Shown piece after piece: positions 8,118 through 16,943 of a stretch of DNA of 64,000 nt (positions within the stretch are counted from its first letter, which is position 1; the number at the start of each line of letters is the position of its first letter). The notes beneath the pieces were generated by a model. It worked only from the letters and a program-made list of their open reading frames with translations. It did no database searches and was not told the DNA's origin. Where the stretch lies: positions 1-64,000 of the forward strand of contig JAAWDZ010000029.1 of the NCBI GenBank assembly GCA_022794015.1, given 5' to 3'. Both the position numbers and the translations under genes were made by a program. Source of the DNA: Eubacterium sp. Its GTDB lineage: Bacteria; Bacillota; Clostridia; Lachnospirales; Lachnospiraceae.

Positions 8118-11100
8118 TTACATAGAGTGTGTCAGTACATAATAAGTTGCCGGGGCATGGCCGTCGCCGACTAATGACTCGCTCAGCCGTCCCTCCGACC
8201 ACATTTGGATGACGTCGCTTATACCGCCGTCTTTTGTTAAGAACAGCAAAATTACACCTGTATATTTACTGTTCCACAGCTCTTTAATGAGGGATGAATC
8301 AACGTGCTGTCCTGAAATCGCTTCGGCGCCTAATTGAAAAATAAATGCTGTACTTGGATATAATTTATATCCCTGATGAAATCCGAAAAATTCGCGCTCT
8401 TCCAGCGAACAATAGCGCTTTGCCCTTCGGGAGATGGCATTGTACTGTTTGTCATTAATATTTTGCGCTCCTGCAAAGTCAAATACCGATGCCCATGTGG
8501 GACTGCAGGATTTTGCGATTCTGGCAGTTGCTATAGTGATAAGGCTCTGGTTTAAAGCGTTATAATCCGACGCGCCTGTCTGGGCTGTCCAGGTGTTTTT
8601 TAATCCGGAATTTTCAATACTGAGCGAATAGGTTATTCCGAATCTGCCGAAATTCCATTCTCTGAGCGGAACGTAAGTTACAAAGTCACTGGTATTGGCA
8701 AAGTTGAAAATAGAATTATACGCTGCCGCATCCCTGTGCGAACTGATTGTCGTAGAAGGAGTTGCAAATGTATAAGCAAATACAGTATTTCCATTATCAA
8801 TCAGTCTTGCTGCCAGAATGTTGGATATGGCAGCTCCTCTGGAATGCCCGGTAATCCAATAAGTGATATTTTCTTTTTCGCTTAGATATCTGTTGCAGTA
8901 CAATTCTATAAAATATTTGATACGTTCCTGTGTGATATAAAAGCCTTTATGGTAATCCGTTTTCCAGGAATCAGGGTCGCCCATATCAAAGTTACTGCTC
9001 CATTCCTCAACGGTTCCATTGGTTCCCCGGATTACAACGCCTACAACAGTTTTTGTAATGCCGCGGTATGTTACGTCGTGATAACCGATTCCAATTTCAG
9101 AAATATTATCATCTGCATATTCATCTATGTCGATTCCGTCTGAATGATATCCTTTTGCGAGTTTATAGTTGATTACTCTGTCAAAACCATGGTATTCCAT
9201 CAGAGTCTTTATGCTGGATATGTTAGAACTTGCTCCGGTTTTCTGTACTTTATTGTATTGGAACGAAGACCCGTCATAAATTGTATTCGCCAGAACCAAA
9301 GATGCAGAGCAGAGTTCTTTGCTGTACATGCTGCTGGATTGGAAGAAATTTCTGTAGTCTATCGTATATTTGGCAGATTTAACAGGGAGGTATCCATTCA
9401 TTACGCCTGTTTCCGCTCCATTTCTTGGCTCCCTGTCTTTATCATCCCTGATTCCATCGAAATCTGTATCTTCCAAAATGGGGTTGGATTTGTAGTCGTA
9501 TACTTCTAATTTATTTGGACCTGTGTACATTTCTTCTGGAATATCATATTTGCTTAATACCCAGGTAATGTATGGTGTGATGTCGGATTCCACTTTCTCT
9601 CCCAGTTCTTCCCGATCGGATAATCCGTCACCGTCGCTGTCCCCGTTTTCTTCCAAAGGCTGGCTGAGTTTAATAAATTGATAATCATTTAGGATGACCC
9701 AGGATCCATCGTTTACAACTTCCCCGATTTTATCTGCCAGTTGCATCAGCACATCACTGAAGTTTTCGTATATATTTGCAAAGAGTCCGTCGGTTGCCTG
9801 GTATAGTTCTTCATAAGCAGAATGTTGTCCGTTTGTTGTGATAACAGATGTAATGATTCCTGCATTTTTAAGGATAGAAGCCATTTCTGACATAGATGAA
9901 ATGCCATAGTTGTTTGTTATTTTATATCCGGCGTCCGTTACTAAAATAATAAACTTGTTGGCGTTCTCACGAAAGTCTAGCTGGCTTGCCATACCAAGTG
10001 CGTCAATGGCAGTTTCAGGATCATCCCCACCGCCGTTAACATAAATGCTGTTGATTTTATTTCTGTATGCAGATACATCGGTGAACCAATTAGAAGCGCC
10101 GTTCTTTATCAGTGTTGTCTCTTCTCCGTATTCGGTGATATCTTTATAATCGATCAGTGCAAAATTGGCATGAACAGAATAATTGGTGGTCAGTGTCGTT
10201 ACAAAAGCCTGAATGTTTGAAGCAACGTTATTAATCTCATCGGACATTGAACCGGTAGAATCTATTACAAATACGATATCTGCCTGTCCGGCGGCTTCTC
10301 TTAGAGCTGTTGTTTTTACAGTCGCAGATTCTTTGGGCTGTTCGAATACACGATTCAGTACATAATGATATGCGGAAGAGTTATTGTCATTGGAAACAGG
10401 ATTATTGTTTTCATCTGCCAGGGTGTAATTTTCCTGAATCCATTTTTCAGATACTTCATTGCCCATAGTATTCTGGGTTGCTTCATTGTCCATAGCAGCT
10501 CCAGTTGAATCCAAAGAAGCAAAAGATGCATCTTCCGCCTCGTCTGCAATATAGCTGTGAATGTCAATTCCAAGGCTAATTAACAGTGTTTCTGCGTCAA
10601 TTACAAAGTAGTCGCCAGTGGAAGCTTCTGTTTGTAAGACAGTTCCATTTACCGCCGTTTCACAGGGTACAATGGTATTGCCTTCATAACGGCAGATCAT
10701 CAGACTGTCTATTCGGTCTGTTTCAGGAGTGCAGTCGAAACGAAGCTGTAAATCATTTCCGTCTGTGTAATCGGTATCAATATGTACCTGTCTGCCTACG
10801 ACTGCCCTGTTATCATTCAATGCATGAATTGTGGTTTCTTCCAGTGCGGCATGTTCTTCAATGACGTCGGAAACGTTTCCCTGTAAAGATGGAACAGCGC
10901 TGTTCTCCTGGCTCAATGCGTTATCAGGTTCCAGTGTCTGAGGTATTTTCCGTTCTGCGTCCGGAGTAATTCCATCGCTGCATTTTTGTAATGGATTCAG
11001 CCCCAGGATGATTTCGTTGCCGTCAGTAATGCCATCATTGTCGGTATCTTTGTTCAGAGGATCTGTATGATATATTTCAACTTCCTCACAGTCTGAAAGT

Positions 11101-12149
11101 CCATCGTTGTCACTGTCAGCCTGCATTGGATTGGTTCCAAGCTCTACTTCCCTCAAATTGGATAAACCGTCTGAATCAGAATCGTCCTCGCCGTCATTAA
11201 TCCCGTTTCCATCTGTATCTTTAAGAACAGGATCTGTTCCTGTTAAATAGGCTTCCTGATAATCCGTCAGTCCGTCGCCGTCAGTATCCTCTAAATTCGG
11301 ATCTGTACCCAGCAGGCTTTCCAGTTCGGGTGATAGCACAGTTTTGTCTGCTGTCCAGTTGGCGTATAACGTAATATTACTGGTAATTGATGTATTGAAA
11401 TCAAATTTTTGCCCGCTGTCTGCTGCTGTATACCAGCCATCGAATATGTATCCTCTTCGGATTGGATCGGATGGCTGCCGGGCTTGCGTATTTGCTTTTA
11501 CAGACTGTGGTTCTACCGGGCTTCCGCCATTTGTGTCAAATGTAACAGTATAAAATAAGTTTGCATTATCAGAGCTGGCGGATGTTACGGTTGCTTTGCA
11601 GATGAGACGGTAGGTTTTCTTTGCTGTTTTAATTTTTACCTGAATGTCTGCAGTTCCCTCCGATTTAGCTTTCACTATACCGTTTTTATTTACGGTTGCA
11701 ACTTTGGAATTGCCTGATTTCCAGGTATATTTTGCTTTTTTGGGTTTGTTTTTGACAGATAGTTTTATCGTTTTTCCAGATTCCAAAGAGAGTTTTGTTT
11801 TGGATAATTTAGGTTTTCTGACAGTAACTTTACAGGTCAGTTTCGTTGTTTTGGAATGGTTTTTGATGGACACAGTTATTTTTGCAGTTCCACTCTTTAA
11901 CCCTTTTACCAGTCCTTTTTTTGATACGGAGGCAATATTCTTTTTGGCAGATTTATAAATAATCTGTGCATTGCCAGGTACATTTTTTACTTTGATTTTT
12001 GTGGTTGCGCCAACTGTAATGCTGGCGGATTTTTTTGCAAGCCGGGGCTTTGCAGCAGCTTCTGCTGTCATTTGTGTTGCAGGAAGTAATGATAAAATCA
12101 TCAGAAGAGACAGCAGTATTGCAATAAATCCTGTACATTTCTTTTTCAT
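8118..12149 (-). CDS. Large secreted multidomain protein: Big_2-like, InlB/Flg_new-type repeat, thrombospondin type-3-like Ca-binding repeats, vWA, class 3 lipase
   Basis: Signal peptide; VTFDTNGG...GYIFDGWYT; repeated [23 protein letters not shown]; lipase GHSRG elbow. Confidence 0.85.
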
Positions 12150-12582: not shown

Positions 12583-12610
12583 TTGCAACTTTTCTGAAAT
12601 ATGGTATGAT
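12583..12610 (+). promoter_or_regulatory. Putative promoter of the GGDEF-PRTase operon
   Basis: TTGCAA (12583-12588), 16-nt spacer, TATGAT (12605-12610). Confidence 0.45.
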
Positions 12611-12663: not shown

Positions 12664-13743
12664 ATGAGAAAAATCTGGGAATATATTTCGGTGAGAGCAG
12701 AAAATGCACTGTCTATCAAGCAGGTTATGTCAGTGGCAATGTCAATGCTTGGCTTTTTTCATTTATGTCTGACGGTATTTTTTCTCTTTTTTAATATTTA
12801 TCCTATGGTTCTGATTGATCTGTTCAGCGTTGCGCTGTATATTTTTTGCTTTGTTCAGATACAGAAAGACAAAAGCCTTTTGTTCCTATTCAATTTATCT
12901 TATATGCAGATTGTGCTTCATTCGGTGATTGCGGCTCTTTTGCTCGGAACGGACAGTGGTTTTTCACTTTATATGATTGCGATTCTGCCAATCGGCTATT
13001 ATGCAGCCTACAATTTTAATATGAGAAAACAGGTAATCAATCCGATGTGCTATGTGATTATTGCCGGCGCGGCTTTTTGTTTCCTGCGGGCTGCCAGCAG
13101 TTATATGGGGCCGTATTATTTCTATGGTAATAAGATGGTTGACAGTGCGATTTATATGGTGAATTATTTCGTGGCCGTACTTTCGATTGTAATATTTATT
13201 ACCACCCTGTTAAATCAGATTCGGATTTTAGAGAACCTGCGCGTGCAGCAAAATAAACAGTTGGAGAAGCTTTCGAAAACGGATGCATTAACCGGCCTTG
13301 CAAACAGGCGGAGCATAGAAGAACGCTATGCCCAGTCCGAGGCATTAAACGAGGGTTATTCCATAGTAATCGGTGATATTGACGACTTTAAGGCTGTAAA
13401 TGACACTTATGGGCACAATGTGGGAGATACGGTGCTGCAGGCGGTGGCGGAAGTATTTAAGAGAACGGTGCGCAGCGAGGATATTGTCTGCCGCTGGGGC
13501 GGGGAGGAGTTTTTGATTTTTCTTCCCAAATGCATGGGGCATGATGCGGCGCATATTGCACATAGGATTTTGGAGAATGTGCGCATTACGGATATGGAGA
13601 CATCGGAGCAGGCTGTTTTCCACATTACCATGACGCTCGGCGTAGCGACGGCAGTACCTGGAATGGAATTTGCGCAGGTAGTAAAAGAAGCCGACGACAG
13701 GCTTTATCACGGCAAGCAAAACGGAAAGAACCAGGTAGTATAA
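12664..13743 (+). CDS. Membrane-bound diguanylate cyclase (GGDEF; GGEEF active site)
   Basis: N-terminal TM segments; KTDALTGLANRR...CRWGGEEFLIFLPK. Confidence 0.9.
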   Translation: MRKIWEYISVRAENALSIKQVMSVAMSMLGFFHLCLTVFFLFFNIYPMVLIDLFSVALYIFCFVQIQKDKSLLFLFNLSYMQIVLHSVIAALLLGTDSGFSLYMIAILPIGYYAAYNFNMRKQVINPMCYVIIAGAAFCFLRAASSYMGPYYFYGNKMVDSAIYMVNYFVAVLSIVIFITTLLNQIRILENLRVQQNKQLEKLSKTDALTGLANRRSIEERYAQSEALNEGYSIVIGDIDDFKAVNDTYGHNVGDTVLQAVAEVFKRTVRSEDIVCRWGGEEFLIFLPKCMGHDAAHIAHRILENVRITDMETSEQAVFHITMTLGVATAVPGMEFAQVVKEADDRLYHGKQNGKNQVV

Positions 13744-14862
13744 ATGAAATACATAGAGCATGAATTTGTTAGCGTTGCAAAACGTGAGAATAATCCTAAA
13801 AGGAATTATCTAGTGGTGAACCGGCTGCAGGGAAAGCATGTTCCCGCAGCTCCGGAGATTGTGTTTGAAATGTTTGATGCACTTGCAGACAGGCTGCAGG
13901 CGGCTTGCAAAAAGGAGCGGCTGCTTTTGGTTGGCTTTGCAGAAACCGCAACGGCAATCGGAGCACGTCTGGCAGTACGTCTGGGTTCTTATTACATACA
14001 GACAACCAGGGAGCAGATACCGAATGCAGAGTATCTGCTCTTTTCGGAATCACACAGCCATGCTACCGAACAGAAGCTGGTAAAAGACGATGTTGAGAGG
14101 ATTCTTCCAAAGGTGGATCGGGTTGTATTTGTAGAAGATGAAGTGACGACGGGCAACACCATTTTGAATATTATAAATATTCTGGAAAAAGAGTATCCGG
14201 ACAAAATGCGGTTTACCGTTGCATCTGTTTTAAACGGAATGGATGCTGAGGCAAAGGGCAGATACCGCGAAAGGCAGATTGGTCTTTTTTATCTGTGTGA
14301 AACAAATCACAGGCAGTATGCTGCAATTGCAGAAGGTTATAACGGGGACGGGGAATATATTTCTATGGATACGTCCTGTGCTGTCCCATCTGCCGTGTAC
14401 CGTCTGCACGGATATTTGAATTCCAGAAGGTGTGTACTGGGAGAAGCGTACAACAAGGCATGCGAAGCATTATGGGAGCAGATAAAGGCAGCAGTTCCAC
14501 TGGATAAAAAGCAGTCTGTTTTGATCCTTGGAACGGAAGAATTTATGTATCCGGCTTTATGGATCGGGGCGTGTCTGGAAAAATGCGGCCATGCGGTAAA
14601 ATGTCATGCAACAACCCGCAGTCCCATTGCCGTAAGCTGCGAAAGCGATTATCCGCTTTCCGTTCGGTATGAACTGGCAAGCTTTTATGAAGATGGCAGG
14701 AGAACCTTTATTTATGATTTGAAAAAATATGATAGTGTATGGATTTTGACCGATGCCATAAATCCGAAAGAGAATGGCGTCTGTTCTTTGATTCATGCCT
14801 TAGAAAGCTGCGGCAATGATGATATACGGCTGTTTTTCTGGGGAGATAATTGTGAGACGTAA
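13744..14862 (+). CDS. Phosphoribosyltransferase + TRSP-domain protein (Ter-associated biosynthetic module type)
   Basis: PRPP-loop-like VVFVEDEVTTGNTILNI; C-terminal ATTRSPIAVS segment. Confidence 0.8.
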   Translation: MKYIEHEFVSVAKRENNPKRNYLVVNRLQGKHVPAAPEIVFEMFDALADRLQAACKKERLLLVGFAETATAIGARLAVRLGSYYIQTTREQIPNAEYLLFSESHSHATEQKLVKDDVERILPKVDRVVFVEDEVTTGNTILNIINILEKEYPDKMRFTVASVLNGMDAEAKGRYRERQIGLFYLCETNHRQYAAIAEGYNGDGEYISMDTSCAVPSAVYRLHGYLNSRRCVLGEAYNKACEALWEQIKAAVPLDKKQSVLILGTEEFMYPALWIGACLEKCGHAVKCHATTRSPIAVSCESDYPLSVRYELASFYEDGRRTFIYDLKKYDSVWILTDAINPKENGVCSLIHALESCGNDDIRLFFWGDNCET

Positions 14863-14909
14863 AAGGATGACGTCAGATGAGAAAATTCCTGAAAACATTT
14901 TGAAACAGA

Positions 14910-15977
14910 ATGGGAGGGGGGGAGATCATGAAAAGCTCATATAAACCGGAGGACGTGCACCTGCTTTTAAAAGATATTTCAGGTATGGTAAAGCCGCAGG
15001 ACACCGAGGAACGGGAAAAGCTGATTCAGTCCGGAAAACATTACTGCGAAATGCTGCCTGTTGAATATATGCCGAGTCAGTTGTATATGGATGCCTATTA
15101 CGATGCCCTGGATAAGTTTGCAGGGCCGACAGCCCGCGCAGTTGGCAGACTTGCAGATAAGGTTGTAAAACAGAGGAGAAAAGATACTGTTCTGGTTTCA
15201 CTGGCAAGGGCGGGTATTCCAATCGGAATATTATTAAAGCATTATATTCTGCAAAAGTATGGAGTGGATATGCCGCATTATGCGCTGTCTATTATTCGGG
15301 GGCGCGGAATTGATCACAACGCCATGCAGTATCTTTTGGAACGCTTCGTGCCGGAGCAGCTTTTATTTGTAGACGGCTGGATTGGAAAAGGCGCGATTTT
15401 AAAAGAACTGCAAAAAGAAATTGCACATTACAAAGGAGTATCGGCAGAAATAGCAGTTCTTGCAGATCCGGCCAATGTGACGCAGCTTTGCGGTACGCAT
15501 GAGGATATTTTAATACCAAGCGCCTGTTTAAACTGCACGGTTTCAGGACTTATCAGCAGGACGTTTCTGCGCAGTGATATAATCGGTAAAACCGATTTTC
15601 ATGGGGCGGTATATTACGAAGAGCTGAAAGAAAAAGATTTGTCCTATGAATTTATTCATGCAATAGAAAGAGAGTTTTCCGCGGAAAATCTGGCAGAGGA
15701 AGAAGAGGCCAAAGGAAGCGGAGCCAGAGAAACGGCTGAAATTGCCAGACGGTTTGGAATAGACGATATGAATCTGGTGAAGCCTGGCATTGGTGAAACG
15801 ACCAGGGTGCTGCTTCGGCGCGTACCATGGAAGATTCTCATAGATACCAACCACAGGAACGATCCGGCTTTATTTCATATCATAAAGCTTGCGGGAGAGA
15901 AGGACGTGCCTGTGGAAGAATATCCGTTAAACCATTACAGGGCCTGCGGTATCATAAAGAAAATGCCGGATGCATAG
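14910..15977 (+). CDS. StiP-family (PRTase-like/cysteine protease StiP annotation) protein with C-terminal PELOTA-like domain
   Basis: VSLARAGIPIGILLKHY, SIIRGRGIDHNAM, FVDGWIGKGAI; C-terminal GIGETTRVLLRRVPWKILID. Confidence 0.78.
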   Translation: MGGGEIMKSSYKPEDVHLLLKDISGMVKPQDTEEREKLIQSGKHYCEMLPVEYMPSQLYMDAYYDALDKFAGPTARAVGRLADKVVKQRRKDTVLVSLARAGIPIGILLKHYILQKYGVDMPHYALSIIRGRGIDHNAMQYLLERFVPEQLLFVDGWIGKGAILKELQKEIAHYKGVSAEIAVLADPANVTQLCGTHEDILIPSACLNCTVSGLISRTFLRSDIIGKTDFHGAVYYEELKEKDLSYEFIHAIEREFSAENLAEEEEAKGSGARETAEIARRFGIDDMNLVKPGIGETTRVLLRRVPWKILIDTNHRNDPALFHIIKLAGEKDVPVEEYPLNHYRACGIIKKMPDA

Positions 15978-15983
15978 GACGTG

Positions 15984-16943
15984 TCATAATGTGCCGTAAA
16001 TTTCAGAAAGATATATGATTTTTCTGGCCCAGTTCGTATGGGTTTTGTATTCATTCATACGTTTTTTCCGGATGCTTCCGGACACAAAAGATGATGCATC
16101 TGTCTCCCATCCCAGGATATTTCGGGCATCCTCCAAATCTTCCTGCGTCACAGCGTATGCCTGGCGTATAAAAGGAATCTGATTGGGATGAATAGCTGTT
16201 TTCCCGACAAAACCACACAGCCGGTCTTCTGTCAGTTCCTGCATAAGACCTTCCTGCCAGCCGCTGCCGCCGTAGTATTCCCAGACCGGCCCGGAGATCA
16301 CATAATCCATGCCAAAAACCGTAATAATATCAGCAAAAATATTGGCGATTGGTAAAATCCGGTGAATGGATTCATTACAGCGCCTCCGAAAACCAAATAA
16401 ATGGCACAGATCATTTCCGCCTACACGGATATTCAGAATATATTTCTCAATTTCCTGCAGACGTTCTTTCATTTCATATAAAACCCCGGCCCTTCTGTCC
16501 GGCATTACAATTGAGGCGCTCTCCATAATCGGCATTACATAGAATGTTTTATTTTCTGGATTGTTTATTTGCAAAACCATTTGAATATACTCGTCTATAT
16601 TATGTAAATCCAGTTTTGGGATAATAAATCCGGATACAATGGCCTGCGCGCTTCCAAGGCGTTCCAGAAGATTTGACATCTGCGACGCTTTGCGGACGCG
16701 GATAAAAATTTCAGGCAAAAAAAATGTAAGGATTTTATGCGCCTTCCAAATCTGTTTCAAAGAACGGATCAAAATATCTTCCGCCTGCGCAACATGGCAG
16801 TCGCCAATGGTATCCTCCAGGCATAGTGCAAGAGAATACCCTGTCCCAAATCTTTCCTTCATAATAGAATCCACAACAGAAACACGGTTGGCCGGGCAGT
16901 ATAAAAGCGGGCCTGTGCTATAATAAACAGCTGCATTTTTCAT
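15984..16943 (-). CDS. HpcH/HpaI-like aldolase/citrate lyase family (C-C bond lyase) protein
   Basis: LEDTIGD, IPKLDL, MPIMES, IRVGGNDLCHLFG, GFVGKTAIHPNQI. Confidence 0.8.
   Translation of the reverse strand: MKNAAVYYSTGPLLYCPANRVSVVDSIMKERFGTGYSLALCLEDTIGDCHVAQAEDILIRSLKQIWKAHKILTFFLPEIFIRVRKASQMSNLLERLGSAQAIVSGFIIPKLDLHNIDEYIQMVLQINNPENKTFYVMPIMESASIVMPDRRAGVLYEMKERLQEIEKYILNIRVGGNDLCHLFGFRRRCNESIHRILPIANIFADIITVFGMDYVISGPVWEYYGGSGWQEGLMQELTEDRLCGFVGKTAIHPNQIPFIRQAYAVTQEDLEDARNILGWETDASSFVSGSIRKKRMNEYKTHTNWARKIIYLSEIYGTL

Follow-up and report, generated by a model that had tools for sequence, protein, structure and literature searches.

The window analysed here, a 64,000-nt stretch of a Lachnospiraceae genome (Eubacterium sp., contig JAAWDZ010000029.1, positions 1 to 64,000, forward strand), contains a four-gene block in which a predicted membrane diguanylate cyclase (GGDEF) is followed by the PRTase_2-TRSP, StiP and C-C lyase genes of a Ter-type metabolite module. 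Comparison of the sequences indicates that this is a real, genus-conserved operon joining the predicted cyclase to what appears to be the biosynthetic half of a Ter system, which in the same genome (G000; 2.78 Mb, 81 contigs, 86% complete) is separated from the membrane/TerD half. The genus is probably one of gut bacteria.

A conserved GGDEF-TRSP pairing

The genus sample comprises 15 genomes, nine with TRSP and six without. A GGDEF orthologue lies directly 5' of TRSP in seven of the nine TRSP-positive members (the present genome, G201, G202, G205, G207, G208, and G210); the six TRSP-negative congeners all lack it. In G212, a contig break falls inside TRSP. The orthologues share 51-84% identity over their full length, including the transmembrane (TM) part, and the GGDEF-TRSP gaps range from -19 to +50 nt. 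Recurring in seven species of the genus, the adjacency is in that sense more than a chance arrangement, and the possibility left by the earlier sequence-only reading, that it is unique to one strain, is refuted. Moreover, the GGDEF-TRSP-StiP-lyase block is constant while both of its flanks vary among the congeners. Downstream lie the ter operon (G202, G208, and G210), Sua5 (G000 and G201), or other genes (G205), and upstream a NUDIX-type gene (G205 and G207), a large VWA/lipase gene (G000), or another cluster common to G201 and G202. A Sua5 tree, meant to place the loss of TRSP, was poorly resolved.

The features of the block are listed below. Domain calls are from Pfam, and every Pfam E-value in the list clears the gathering cut-off by a wide margin.

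12583..12610, + strand: promoter-like site TTGCAA-16-TATGAT with TG before the -10 (consensus scan), about 54 nt upstream of the GGDEF ATG
12664..13743, + strand: predicted membrane diguanylate cyclase, 359 aa, with six predicted N-terminal TM helices, a signalling helix and a GGDEF domain (1.8e-40)
13471..13482, + strand: I-site RxxD (RSED), product-inhibition motif; RxxD in 8/8 genus orthologues and in the G192 outgroup
13498..13512, + strand: GGEEF active-site motif; GGEE[F/I] in all orthologues
13744..14862, + strand: PRTase_2 + TRSP protein, 372 aa, with the phosphoribosyl pyrophosphate (PRPP)-binding motif VVFVEDEVTTGNT (PRTase_2 1.1e-43, TRSP 5.1e-21)
14928..15977, + strand: StiP + PELOTA_1 protein, of 349 aa if it begins with the ATG at 14928 and of 355 aa if it begins at 14910 (StiP 1.1e-101, PELOTA_1 6.1e-30)
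15984..16943, - strand: convergent C-C_Bond_Lyase (HpcH/HpaI/CitE-like TIM barrel), 319 aa (3.8e-89)

As judged from these matches, the identities of the four genes are firm, and the profile check proposed for TRSP, StiP, and the lyase supports all three. The coordinates agree with the layout described before: the TAA of GGDEF occupies 13741-13743 and the ATG of TRSP begins at 13744, leaving zero gap, and StiP with its PELOTA-like C-terminus ends at 15977, separated by 6 nt from the stop of the convergent lyase at 15984. For StiP, the start at 14928, behind the strong ribosome-binding site GGGAGGGGGGGAG, is more likely than that at 14910.

A promoter-like sequence, CTTGcAA...TATnaT, is found about 50 nt 5' of GGDEF in eight orthologues, even with differing upstream genes, and the consensus scan detected no such site at the GGDEF-TRSP junction. 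Co-transcription of GGDEF and TRSP is likely on this pattern of signals. In the four closest species, the last GGDEF codons contain a weak ribosome-binding sequence for TRSP, which suggests that TRSP translation is coupled to the termination of GGDEF.

On the other side of the GGDEF operon, and divergent from it, the window encodes a 1343-aa predicted cell-surface or secreted protein (8118-12149, - strand) with Big_2, Listeria-Bacteroides repeat, TSP3, VWA, and lipase_3 domains. This gene does not adjoin the operon in the congeners examined.

A Ter system split between contigs

Anantharaman, Iyer and Aravind reportedly proposed in 2012 a Ter-dependent stress response system that includes a nucleoside-like metabolite module. 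In the system as described, phosphoribosyltransferases (PRTases) and HAD enzymes produce a nucleoside-like signal, TerB and TerD act as sensors, and TerC and TelA act at the membrane (PMC7824862, PMC8115787). The sequence-only assignment of the window genes to such a module was right, given their Pfam domains and the occurrence of the same genes in loci of relatives and in an annotated Aromatoleum plasmid locus. The module had, however, also been called reduced, as no TerD, HAD, or ATP-grasp gene was seen. This is true of the immediate neighbourhood; for the genome it holds only for ATP-grasp, since TerD, TelA, YceG, and HAD are all encoded elsewhere.

The partner search in the own genome found four TerD genes on two contigs, neither of them that of the window. 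On contig C34 (locus L021), a trypsin-YceG fusion, YceG (8e-126), TelA (9e-103), three TerD genes, a Ca-type P-ATPase, and a HAD hydrolase follow in a row, with apparent flagellar genes downstream. The HAD protein (L021:13618-14562) matches Hydrolase_3 (3.3e-10) and the Ter HAD of Aromatoleum (3e-12). The fourth TerD, on contig C35, is accompanied by an AIM24-like gene. A Ter-type ATP-grasp was not found in this 86% complete genome, where ATPgrasp_Ter matches only CarB-sized open reading frames (about 1080 aa). Its absence is normal, because ATP-grasp is recognised in just three family loci, one of them Pfam-confirmed. The Ter system here is thus split and otherwise nearly complete, with only ATP-grasp missing among the parts sought, and the apparently reduced block is one half of it.

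We speak of a split because in most TRSP loci of other family genera the TRSP-StiP pair, usually with a convergent C-C lyase, and the YceG-TelA-TerD-ATPase operon stand side by side. With the rest of the Ter genes, including HAD, on other contigs, the parts of the pathway usual for the family are therefore present in trans. Most family loci have the lyase at this position, and its convergent orientation is common there; the arrangement in the window is family-typical and nothing special. Loci from other classes of the phylum read lyase-TRSP-StiP-HAD, with every gene in the same direction. The Aromatoleum plasmid locus also runs in one direction, with the lyase last, and has the same genes as the own genome apart from an added ATP-grasp. 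As far as the parts of the published description considered here go, PRTase_2+TRSP, StiP+PELOTA, C-C_Bond_Lyase, HAD, TerD, TelA, and YceG are common to the described system and the own genome. Relative to the same parts, the own genome differs in having its genes spread over at least three contigs, a convergent lyase, no ATP-grasp, and GGDEF at the head of the TRSP operon, as well as a ter operon with the trypsin-YceG fusion and the Ca-ATPase, which other family members share.

In many family loci, the ter operon begins with the fusion of a YceG domain to a trypsin-like protease (L021:4079-5665 and homologues); a recurrent neighbour of this gene belongs to a family in which the sampled member is a rhomboid protease. 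Some relatives have structured RNAs within or next to the stretch that separates the lyase from their ter operon, TwoAYGGAY in two loci and Clostridiales-1 in two (L056:13254-13422, L083:4687-4852, L027:9967-10132, and L035:14007-14168). Neither RNA was found in the window or in L021. TwoAYGGAY is a proposed CsrA-binding small RNA (PMC4333381).

In the PRTase_2+TRSP protein, to which solved adenine PRTases give weak matches, residues D132, E133, T136, G137, and T139 are at least 95% conserved among 56 sequences. TRSP has a ratio of nonsynonymous to synonymous substitution rates (dN/dS) of 0.13-0.24, and StiP likewise evolves under constraint, with synonymous sites near saturation. The C-C lyase gives weak matches to CitE in the PDB. 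For StiP, the AlphaFold model (mean predicted local distance difference test score, pLDDT, of 90) has as its top Foldseek matches the type I PRTases PyrR and HGPRT, at modest E-values (best 7e-5). The motif DGWxGKG is invariant and positioned where the PRPP loop would be, and the C-terminus bears a weak likeness to L7Ae; unlike PyrR and HGPRT, StiP has an additional N-terminal part and the PELOTA part. No invariant Cys was found in the alignment of 23-24 sequences. Given the PRTase-like fold and the lack of such a Cys, the role of cysteine protease implied by the Pfam label is doubtful, and the label is probably wrong. As modelled, StiP would be another PRTase, with a C-terminal RNA-binding extension, which fits a nucleoside-like pathway better than a protease does. 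Anti-phage annotation with PADLOC and PHROGs returned a single weak PRTase match and nothing more.

The predicted cyclase and the c-di-GMP network

The AlphaFold model of the cyclase (pLDDT 78.8) consists of six TM helices, a long signalling helix, and the GGDEF domain. The protein matches diguanylate cyclases in the PDB, the nearest folds being SiaD, DosC, DgcR, and PleD. Conserved across the orthologues are GGEE[F/I], the metal-binding D238 and D240, N246 and D255, which by comparison with PleD we take to be substrate-binding positions, and the RxxD I-site. The residues expected for the synthesis of cyclic diguanylate (c-di-GMP) and for product inhibition are thus conserved. The dN/dS of GGDEF against its congeners is about 0.03-0.12, below that of TRSP in the available comparisons, with the synonymous rate near saturation. 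GGEEF, the I-site, and the dimerising signalling helix are common to membrane GGDEF cyclases and the window protein. The latter differs from the known ones in its six-TM N-terminal domain, which carries no Pfam name, and in its Ter-module operon context, which the literature search did not find for any of them.

The own genome encodes four GGDEF domains, including a degenerate one within a histidine kinase, a single PilZ protein, which is YcgR in a flagellar operon, and no EAL protein. EAL domains are absent from all nine TRSP-positive congeners and number 8-12 in the six TRSP-negative ones, and PilZ is sparser in the former than in the latter. Judged from GGDEF, EAL, and PilZ, the c-di-GMP network is therefore small in the TRSP-positive branch, which makes the retention of the window cyclase more noticeable.

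Weighing a link between c-di-GMP and the Ter module

The reading that we favour, with a confidence a little better than even, is that of a known Ter metabolite module to whose operon a lineage-specific, predicted membrane diguanylate cyclase has been added, making c-di-GMP alongside it. According to this proposal, a single transcript would carry GGDEF, TRSP, and StiP, with GGDEF promoter-proximal. The TM domain of the cyclase would sense the state of the membrane or envelope, and c-di-GMP would be synthesised simultaneously with the Ter metabolite. The two proteins of PRTase fold, the C-C lyase, and the HAD phosphatase would produce the nucleoside-like metabolite, which TerD/TelA proteins would perceive. 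The likeliest output of c-di-GMP would be YcgR, the flagellar brake and the single PilZ protein found, such that cells would slow their motility during the Ter envelope response. That c-di-GMP and Ter are functionally linked at all is, on the sequences, an evenly balanced matter. The signalling link that had been proposed from the zero-gap coupling gains from the genus-wide conservation through rearrangement, the common promoter-like site, and the kept catalytic residues, and it loses from its restriction to this genus.

A number of observations weigh against such a link. The out-of-genus set comprised 31 family loci (29 or 30 with a readable upstream gene) and 19 phylum loci (all readable), and of the 48 loci in which the gene 5' of TRSP could be read, not one has GGDEF there, as opposed to the seven of nine within the genus; a widespread association was accordingly rejected. 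In the family loci, the gene 5' of TRSP is usually unrelated between species (GNAT, lumazine synthase, cation efflux, AraC, Uma2, and AIPR genes) or is the lyase itself, and the spot therefore tolerates arbitrary neighbours. G192, of another genus, has a GGDEF orthologue (45%) in a genome without TRSP. Within the genus, G211 gives the adjacency no support, because its TRSP is on a different contig from the GGDEF orthologue and has other genes upstream. The GGDEF-TRSP species G202, G205, G208, and G210 show no PilZ match, so that an output through YcgR is not general. A search at Rfam gathering scores detected no c-di-GMP riboswitch in the window or the ter loci, and control of the operon by one was rejected on that result. 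Furthermore, we know of no identification of the Ter metabolite. From the genus restriction, the unrelated upstream genes elsewhere, and G192, the association was probably a single ancestral event followed by retention.

Three further observations concern these loci. The end of the G211 contig that carries GGDEF (G211:C165, L098:5439-5465) reads as Illumina adapter (RSEEHTSEL), an apparent assembly artefact that hides what lies downstream of the gene. Five GGDEF genes occur elsewhere in the out-of-genus loci, outside the TRSP junction and not obviously above background. In G170 (L029:2883-4857), a different GGDEF gene stands about 240 nt 5' of TerD, beside a StiP-TRSP-lyase block, which is within background expectation.

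A single-event origin keeps operon hitchhiking a serious rival, one that we rate as possible and less than evenly probable: TRSP-StiP would have landed behind GGDEF in the ancestor of the genus and would borrow its promoter, c-di-GMP being unconnected with the Ter metabolite. The random mix of genes ahead of TRSP in the family, the empty out-of-genus count, and G192 all suit it. It does not readily account for GGDEF staying by TRSP though both outer flanks change, for the lack of an orthologue in TRSP-negative congeners, or for the strong purifying selection on a GGDEF protein that keeps its active site and I-site; promoter dependence alone might explain the kept order but not the enzymatic competence, which GGDEF could nevertheless keep for reasons of its own. 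Decay offers another account, in which the block would be the remnant of a reduced Ter module. The neighbourhood without TerD, ATP-grasp, and HAD and the genome without a dedicated ATP-grasp would agree with it, but the missing parts sit on other contigs with a complete ter operon in trans, the catalytic residues are kept, StiP and TRSP are under constraint, and the lack of ATP-grasp is usual in the family. We regard decay as exceedingly improbable.

Alternatively, the c-di-GMP or other cyclic dinucleotide that the cyclase makes might switch the metabolite pathway allosterically by acting directly on TRSP, StiP-PELOTA, TerD, or TelA. The zero-gap coupling would favour this, as would the retention of the cyclase in a branch of the genus without EAL and nearly without PilZ (some species have none). 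However, Pfam detected no domain known to bind c-di-GMP in the Ter proteins (HD-GYP, MshEN, and further receptors lay outside the search), and TRSP works without an adjacent GGDEF in all other lineages. We rate direct action as very unlikely. An unlikely but related view is that the retained cyclase has become a dedicated Ter input in a lineage that lost EAL and nearly all PilZ, with a cyclic dinucleotide directly controlling the synthesis or the sensing of the metabolite; if true, Ter would here be a c-di-GMP-gated stress response.

Although the pathway was proposed over a decade ago, we know of no report that names the Ter metabolite or its trigger. A Ter pathway wired behind a membrane cyclase would open an experimental route to that trigger. 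The literature search found no study of a link between c-di-GMP and Ter, relative to which such a connection would be new. As the pairing has outlasted genome rearrangement in this genus, the c-di-GMP and Ter pathways may work together.

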